Shown here piece by piece: positions 229-1,815 of a stretch of DNA of 64,000 nucleotides. The DNA is taken from the NCBI GenBank assembly GCA_001787535.1, contig MFXP01000004.1, forward strand, positions 112,652 to 176,651. Reading direction: 5' to 3'. Both the position numbers and the translations under genes were made by a program. The notes below the pieces were generated by a model. The model had not been told where the DNA came from and did not search any database. It worked only from the letters and a program-made list of their open reading frames with translations. Within the stretch, counting starts at the first letter, position 1, and the number at the start of each line of letters is the position of its first letter. The DNA is from Candidatus Peribacteria bacterium RIFCSPHIGHO2_01_FULL_51_35. Lineage in GTDB: Bacteria; Patescibacteriota; Gracilibacteria; Peribacterales; Peribacteraceae.

Positions 229-256
229 TTGCGGAGCGGTGAAGACACCCTAGAAT
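229..256 (+). promoter_or_regulatory. Candidate promoter of histone-fold gene
   Basis: TTGCGG (229-234), a 16-base spacer and TAGAAT (251-256) form a sigma-70-like promoter. Transcription would begin near 263, leaving a leader of about 25 bases before the ATG at 288. That leader has no Shine-Dalgarno sequence. Confidence 0.5.
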
Positions 257-287
257 CGGCCTGTTTTATCATTTCACCCTTATCCTT

Positions 288-458
288 ATGAGTTACGTTG
301 TCGCATCCGCGATCAAAGAACTCCTCAAGAAGCACGGCATGATGTGTGCCGGCGATTTCCCCGAAGCTTGTTCCAAGTTTGTCGAGGAAGGAGTCATTGG
401 TGCCGCAAAGCGCGCAAAGGAGAACGGCCGCGTCACAACGCGTCCTTGCGACCTTTAA
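288..458 (+). CDS. Bacterial histone-fold protein (56 aa)
   Basis: A 56-residue protein that spans one minimal histone fold. The N-terminal helix carries VVASAIKELLKKHG, a long central helix follows, and residues 46-56 (GRVTTRPCDL) align position by position with the archaeal histone loop-2 and helix-3 start GRKTIKAEDI, including the Arg-Thr pair. Histone folds of this NFYB/HAP3-like class dimerise and bind DNA; short bacterial members such as Bdellovibrio Bd0055 coat DNA. The predicted role is nucleoid packaging or transcription, which is inferred from the family. The gene stands alone with its own promoter and a strong terminator directly behind it. Two cysteines (residues 20 and 28) and a third near the end are unusual for the family. 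Confidence 0.72.
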   Translation: MSYVVASAIKELLKKHGMMCAGDFPEACSKFVEEGVIGAAKRAKENGRVTTRPCDL

Positions 459-484: not shown

Positions 485-510
485 CACCTCTGTCATAGAG
501 GTGTTTTTTT
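485..510 (+). terminator. Rho-independent terminator after histone-fold gene
   Basis: A perfect 7-bp stem, CACCTCT (485-491) and AGAGGTG (497-503), closes a 5-base loop and is followed by seven T (504-510). It begins 27 bases after the stop codon. Confidence 0.85.
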
Positions 511-728: not shown

Positions 729-1815
729 TTAATGGGAAGCCTGCCGCTTCAATTCCGCATCAATGAACTGCTGGATGTCACCATCCAGCACTCCCGTGGT
801 GTCGCTCGTCTCGGTATCCGTTCGCAGATCTTTTACCATCTGATACGGATGCAACACGTAGCTGCGGATCTGCTGACCGAAGTCCGCGCTCTGCGTGGCT
901 CCTTTCAGTTCCTGTTTTTGTTCCAAGTCTTCCGCGCGTTTCTTTTCCAATAACTTTGCGCGCACCAAGTTCATCGCGAGCGCTCTGTTCTGGAGCTGAC
1001 TTCGTTCACTCTGGCACGCGACCATGATCCCCGTGGGAATATGCGTAATGCGCACGGCACTCTCCACTTTGTTCACGTTCTGTCCGCCCGCGCCGCCGCT
1101 GCGGAATGTATCGATACGCAAGTCATTCGGATCTATATCCACTTCCGTCGTCTCCGTGATTTCCGGCAAAACTTCCACCAGCGCAAAGCTGGTCTGGCGG
1201 AGGCTTTTTGCATTGAAGGGCGACAAGCGCACCAGGCGGTGCGTGCCTTTCTCACACTTCAAATTTCCGTATGCCATCTGTCCTTCCACTCGTATGGTCG
1301 CGGATTTGATGCCTGCTTCTTGACCATCCGTCTTTTCCACCAGTGATGTCTTCCATCCTTGGCGTTCGCAGTATCGCAGATACATGCGCATTAAGATGGC
1401 AGCCCAATCCTGCGCTTCCGTTCCGCCTGCGCCACCGCTTAATGTAAGGAAGCAATTCCCGGCATCAAATTCTCCGCTCAAGTAAATCTGTGTTTCCACT
1501 TCTTTCCACTTCTTCTCCAGCTTCTCGTATTCCTTCAGCAAATCAGGCAAATCTTCGGTGCCGGATTCCTTTGCCAACCCCAGGACTTCCTCCGTTTGCT
1601 CCGCCAGTTCTTTCACGGGTTCCCACTGCTTCCGCAACGCCTTCAATTTGGAGAAGAGCGCATTGGCAGCTTTTTGGTCACTCCAAATGTTCGGATCCTC
1701 CGTCCGCTTCGTCAGCTCCTCTATTTCTTTCGGGATGCCTTGTCCATCAAAGAGAGTCCTTCCCCGTGTTAACGGCGGACTTCAGATCCTGTAATTTTTG
1801 AAGAAGTTCTTCCAT
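729..1815 (-). CDS. prfB: Peptide chain release factor 2, programmed +1 frameshift
   Basis: RF2 ends translation at UGA and UAA. The GGQ peptidyl-hydrolysis motif ([14 protein letters not shown]) and the stop-reading SPF tripeptide (VRLSPF) are both present. The gene begins at ATG 1815, reads 22 codons to CTT TGA (1752-1747), then continues in the +1 frame from GAT at 1748, for about 361 residues, the normal RF2 length. Without the shift only a 22-residue peptide is made. The organisation matches Escherichia coli prfB, where UGA autoregulates RF2. A -10 box TATACT lies at 1841-1836. Starting at the internal Met near 1646 would lose the N-terminal domain, so the frameshifted form is preferred. 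Confidence 0.93.
1747..1765 (-). promoter_or_regulatory. RF2 programmed frameshift site
   Basis: On the minus strand the slippery codon CTT (1752-1750) precedes the in-frame stop TGA (1749-1747), followed by T. A purine run GGGGAAGGA just upstream (1765-1757) resembles the internal Shine-Dalgarno element of the E. coli site, here with a 4-base spacer instead of 3. Slow decoding of UGA when RF2 is scarce would favour the shift and restore RF2. Confidence 0.88.

Follow-up and report, generated by a model that had tools for sequence, protein, structure and literature searches.

The histone gene, its promoter and its neighbors

Near the start of the window, by which we mean the whole stretch of 64,000 nucleotides that was analyzed, a short gene lies behind its own promoter and faces a convergent prfB gene across a shared terminator (Table 1). 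Its translation, P0001, is MSYVVASAIKELLKKHGMMCAGDFPEACSKFVEEGVIGAAKRAKENGRVTTRPCDL, a protein of 56 residues with cysteines at C20, C28, and C54. The frame is a genuine gene and not a chance one, given that its 14 orthologs at 70 to 88% identity, all from other species (Ca. Peregrinibacteria, Peribacteria, or Peribacteraceae), align over all 56 columns without a gap and that the differences among them fall mostly at the third codon position, for example 5, 4, and 22 at positions 1, 2, and 3 in the comparison with L002. An antisense open reading frame at 117 to 596 that overlaps the histone was rejected because the substitutions track the plus frame. The gene is single copy in its source genome (G000; 1.2 Mb, 99% complete).

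Table 1. Features of the histone locus, in window coordinates
Feature	Position	Strand	Basis
-35 box TTGCGG	229..234	+	66 of the order's 67 upstream regions have TTGN, with 14-18 nt spacing
-10 box TAGAAT	251..256	+	67/67 upstream regions of the order have a -10 box, with the ATG 34-44 nt downstream
Pyrimidine-rich leader without Shine-Dalgarno	257..287	+	conserved in upstream regions of the order
P0001, putative FtF-type alpha3 histone, 56 aa	288..458	+	homology, orthologs, profile match
Predicted helix alpha1, residues 2-15; K10 and K14 align with HLp DNA-contact K17 and K21	291..332	+	model, alignment
Predicted helix alpha2, residues 24-45, bearing the putative tetramer-interface R42	357..422	+	model, conservation
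N46, loop L2 (R48-x-T50), and predicted one-turn alpha3 to D55-L56	423..455	+	published roles, invariance, fixed C-terminus
Bidirectional intrinsic terminator separating histone and prfB	485..510	+	hairpin 485-503 plus T504-510
prfB (release factor 2), +1 frameshift site CTTTGA at ~1752	729..1815	-	convergent neighbor, conserved in the order

The two promoter boxes are separated by a spacer of 16 nt. A consensus promoter scan by itself did not call the promoter at 229 to 256, and the evidence for it is its conservation: the -10 box takes the form TA[G/C]AAT or a near variant in all 67 upstream regions of the order, and both boxes are kept in 66 of them. Shuffled upstream controls gave a mean of 4.6 for the -10 box and a mean of 0.4 (maximum, 3) for both boxes. 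Downstream, the terminator hairpin has a fold z of -5.8 and is common to the histone and prfB, and most histone orthologs likewise have a hairpin with a T-run 3' of the gene. The initial annotation had credited the gene with its own promoter and terminator, which these results bear out; high abundance of the product, as was also suggested, is a plausible prediction.

No Shine-Dalgarno sequence precedes the histone in any of the 67 upstream regions of the order, where the leader is pyrimidine rich. Shine-Dalgarno-like sequences also look scarce upstream of other open reading frames in the window, some of which are possibly leaderless, such as the one with its ATG at 2308, where TATATT lies about 8 nt upstream. 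Histones from other families of the phylum (L059 to L065) have AAGGAGGTG or a near form upstream.

The prfB gene is context and no part of the histone. It carries the classic +1 frameshift of release factor 2 (CTT TGA) and is the histone's convergent neighbor at most of the order's loci, divergent members included. The frame upstream of the histone (L001 1-729) resembles, by eye, a family X DNA polymerase (PolX), of which it would be the C-terminal portion.

Relatedness, fold and ring-interface residues

A single-sequence search of solved structures with P0001 returned three proteins, with HLp of Leptospira perolatii (9QT0) at the top (E value, 1.5e-4). When a family profile built from 24 singlets of the order was searched against the PDB, HLp was matched at 8.5e-15, HTkC at 4.6e-13, and HBb at 2e-10, and all of the strong matches were alpha3-truncated histones, while nucleosomal archaeal histones matched weakly, at about 0.008 and worse (HMfA, 0.0076). 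A narrow profile gave 1.7e-9 for HLp, 5e-6 for HBb, and 4e-4 for HTkC, so that HBb, a dimer, stood above HTkC by E value. Neither Pfam nor NCBIfam matched P0001 at E values up to 10. The Pfam histone model CBFD_NFYB_HMF passed an E value of 0.01 in 11 of the 24 family members, P0001 not among them, and routine annotation would therefore probably overlook the gene. A PHROGs search gave a weak Arc-like match over 17 residues.

The AlphaFold monomer model, of moderate confidence (pLDDT 73.5, pTM 0.47), predicts helices at residues 2 to 15 and 24 to 45 and a turn at 53 to 55. Foldseek found nothing at an E value of 0.001 or below for this model; its weak matches include many histone folds, with HTkC at rank 2 (TM 0.63). 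On the family-profile homology, and with the helices of the model taken at that moderate confidence, P0001 is a histone-fold protein, with a predicted alpha1, long alpha2, and alpha3. This agrees with the histone fold that the initial annotation had proposed for a bacterium, and the predicted helices do not contradict its picture of two helices around a long central one. As to the likeness to archaeal histones that it also noted, the nearest relatives are the alpha3 histones HLp, HTkC, and HBb, and not the nucleosomal archaeal histones with their weak matches. Its description of the protein as minimal and unusually short does not stand, since alpha3 histones are shorter by definition and 56 residues make up the whole FtF core.

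The same comparisons bear on whether a bacterium could have acquired a hypernucleosome-type archaeal histone. The weak HMfA match and the CBFD_NFYB_HMF matches in family members other than P0001 favor such an origin, but the top matches are alpha3 histones, and nucleosomal archaeal histones (HMf/HTkA) have an alpha3 of about 10 residues and a longer alpha2, whereas alpha3 is here a single turn according to the model and to the position at which the chains end. We consider this origin extremely improbable. Nor does P0001 resemble the DUF1931 double histones (Aquifex AQ328, Thermus 1WWI), which share a bacterial histone fold with it but have two folds per chain and lack DNA-binding residues (PMC13088155); the P0001 chain holds a single fold, and DUF1931 had no Pfam match in it.

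Conservation was counted over 66 distinct singlet sequences. R42, N46, R48, T50, and D55 are identical in all 66, and in every one of these chains a single residue follows D55. The spacing of these residues matches that of R41, N45, R47, T49, and D54 in Haloferax D4GZE0, in which R41 and N45 are tetramer residues and the FtF core reaches to about residue 55 (PMC11390915). The terminal carboxylate has a role in FtF tetramers, and the fixed chain end is what the published R41-to-carboxylate salt bridge needs. By their published roles, N46 would belong to the FtF interface, R48 and D55 to the RD clamp, T50 to the DNA contacts, and L56 would supply the terminal carboxylate. The loop G47-R48-x-T50...R52-x-x-D55, which had been picked out earlier as a histone signature, is present in P0001.

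HLp (PDB 9QT0 to 9QT2) is a bacterial FtF histone that wraps about 60 bp and uses R49, N53, and R55 in its tetramer (PMC12701072). It aligns without a gap over P0001 residues 3 to 55, where the P0001 number is the HLp number minus 7, such that R49, N53, R55, and D62 correspond to R42, N46, R48, and D55. Its C-terminus also lies one residue past the clamp Asp, and its alpha2 is one turn short. HLp differs in having an N-terminal tail of several residues, which P0001 lacks, and in its Leptospira host, which is without HU, whereas HU coexists with the histone in genomes of the order. Substitutions from HLp to P0001 include K15 to A8, T27 to C20, T56 to V49, T61 to C54, and F63 to L56, and the position of the HLp interface residue S52 is mostly Glu, Asp, or Ala in histones of the order. 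HTkC of Thermococcus kodakarensis (PDB 9F2C), the second-best profile match, is an FtF histone with the same type of alpha3 in a chain of 59 residues; it differs in being archaeal and, when aligned, in having two additional residues around alpha1-L1.

The sequence features of the FtF class are found together in P0001. Formally, the class is defined by a predicted or solved ring-shaped tetramer, for which the fixed C-terminus and the fused doublets described below speak indirectly. Alpha3 is truncated to 3 to 4 residues and alpha2 is short, as seen from the D55+1 end and the gap-free alignment to HLp; the profile residues R48 and N52 are present as R42 and N46 (66/66 singlets); and the RxTxxxxD loop (R48-T50-D55, 66/66) is accompanied by the alpha1 lysine K16 of the profile, as K10 in 58/58 of the order. 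A DNA-bending dimer without a ring, like HBb (Bd0055) of Bdellovibrio (PDB 8CMP, 8FVX), which bends DNA as a dimer (PMC11317129), would also suit part of this evidence. HBb is homologous to the family and has the shortened alpha2, the one-turn alpha3, and an RxTxxxxD-like loop. Bacterial dimers of this type, however, lack the R48/N52 pair of the FtF profile (HBb aligns there with Ser and Asp, without the tetramer-interface Arg and Asn), while every singlet of the order has Arg and Asn at both positions. P0001 carries the pair, and FtF proteins match the family better than HBb does, which makes the dimer an unlikely reading. The invariant R42/N46 pair, the invariant R48-T50-D55, and the fixed C-terminus instead suggest that P0001 would most likely form an FtF tetramer wrapping about 60 bp as HLp does. 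Judged on these comparisons, we regard P0001 with considerable confidence as a bacterial FtF alpha3 histone.

DNA-contact positions and a proposed mode of action

In HLp, the DNA contacts are A13, S14, K15, K17, K21, T27, G29, T56, and T57. Six of these nine positions are identical in P0001 (A6, S7, K10, K14, G22, and T50), and three are changed (K15 to A8, T27 to C20, and T56 to V49). K10 is invariant in the order and K14 is common, and the equivalents of both contact DNA in HLp. The clade to which the window belongs has lost two basic positions: K8 is replaced by Ala in 15/15 of its members versus being kept in 34/43 of the rest of the order, and K49 is replaced by Val in 14/15 versus being kept in 31/43. 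The net charge is +2 for P0001 and +1 to +3 within the clade. Given these losses and the low charge, DNA binding is possibly weaker than in HLp; we consider it likely that P0001 binds DNA, perhaps less strongly.

A histone fold put to another use, in which the protein would be a regulator or a partner and would show little DNA binding of a general kind, could also account for the two lost basic positions and the low charge, and with HU present the cell would not strictly require another packaging protein. The six identical HLp contacts and the invariant L2 loop with its clamp argue against such a role, and we give it slightly less weight than the HBb-like dimer.

Of the three cysteines recorded in the initial annotation, which are present but form no signature, C28 is found in P0001 alone, and within its clade of 15, C20 is present in 4 sequences and C54 in 5. 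In the alignment to HLp, C20 falls at T27 in the DNA loop, C54 at T61 in the tetramer interface, and C28 at L35 in the dimer core. We rejected a metal site formed by these residues because they are poorly conserved.

For the FtF histone reading, we propose that two P0001 chains would form a histone handshake dimer and that two dimers would close into a ring tetramer via R42, N46, R48, and the C-terminal carboxylate (L56). The exterior of the ring, comprising the alpha1 ends (A6-S7, K10, and K14) and the paired L1/L2 loops (G22, T50, and the R48-D55 clamp), would bind the DNA backbone without sequence preference, with about 60 bp wrapped per tetramer. P0001 would then serve as a household chromatin protein of the order, alongside HU. 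By homology to HLp and HTkC, we infer the FtF tetramer, DNA binding, wrapping, and abundance of the protein.

Distribution, inheritance and variant forms

Bacterial FtF histones have so far been found mainly in Spirochaetota, Planctomycetota, Bdellovibrionota, and Myxococcota (PMC11390915, PMC12701072). A search of related genomes, as had been suggested earlier, located the histone in 68/74 genomes of the order Ca. Peribacteria/Peregrinibacteria and in 55/57 of those of good quality; one complete single-contig genome of the order (G050) is without it. Outside the order, the class has the histone in just 2 genomes (353 searched), and across the phylum it is sporadic (25/380 genomes, 16 of those 25 from the order). 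HU (PF00216) is present in 67/74 genomes of the order, one copy in each, and nearly every genome has both proteins. Neither phages, searched by tblastn, nor viral contigs gave a histone match, and a phage origin was rejected on that account. The gene looks like a vertically kept core chromosomal gene of the order, given that it is near-universal there, that the prfB neighbor is kept, and that phage and viral contigs lack it.

A tree built from 69 short sequences places the phylum's f20/f50 histones with HLp and apart from those of the order, although with 56 columns the resolution is low and long branches meet. This grouping makes a separate acquisition possible, and the histone may have been acquired more than once in the phylum, as far as a poorly resolved tree can indicate. 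Members of other families of the phylum (L059 to L066) are FtF-type histones that have a Shine-Dalgarno sequence, carry K/R at the alpha1 positions, and fall with HLp in this tree. The FtF kind is already known; we found no published histone from Patescibacteria, Peribacteria, or CPR in the searchable literature, and within the literature searched a histone of the lineage Peribacteria is new.

Variant forms occur as well. Fused doublets, L055 (G017), L056 (G073), L084 (G039), and L054 (G421), are tandem alpha3 histones of 119 to 121 residues, and each half has loop motifs. Repeat 1 of the three from the order (L055, L056, and L084) lacks a free C-terminus and carries Ala in place of R42, and repeat 2 keeps the Arg and ends at D+1. 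L054, from outside the order, keeps the Arg in both repeats and ends four residues later. From the loss of the ring Arg in repeat 1 and its retention in repeat 2 we infer a homotypic ring interface, with the reservation that L055, L056, and L084 have similar linkers and may represent one event. The doublets keep the DNA loop, unlike those of DUF1931. Cys-rich sister histones (L057, L058, and L090 to L095) are 54 residues long with six cysteines conserved among them (RCGGDFC...C...RCKENKRQTVYGCDC), for which metal binding or redox control is possible.

In summary, the histone is as universal in the order as HU (68/74 versus 67/74) and is passed on together with its promoter and neighbor. About 60 natural variants are available and allow one to ask what a histone adds where HU is present; the fused doublets among them put the published ring interface to the test. 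We see roughly even prospects that an FtF histone has been a core chromosomal gene of this small-genome, uncultured order since its origin, kept beside HU and diversified in place into charge-reduced forms, forms with six Cys in 54 residues, and doublets with halves specialized at the ring interface. If this is true, nucleosome-like wrapping in bacteria and HU would be a standing partnership and not alternatives.
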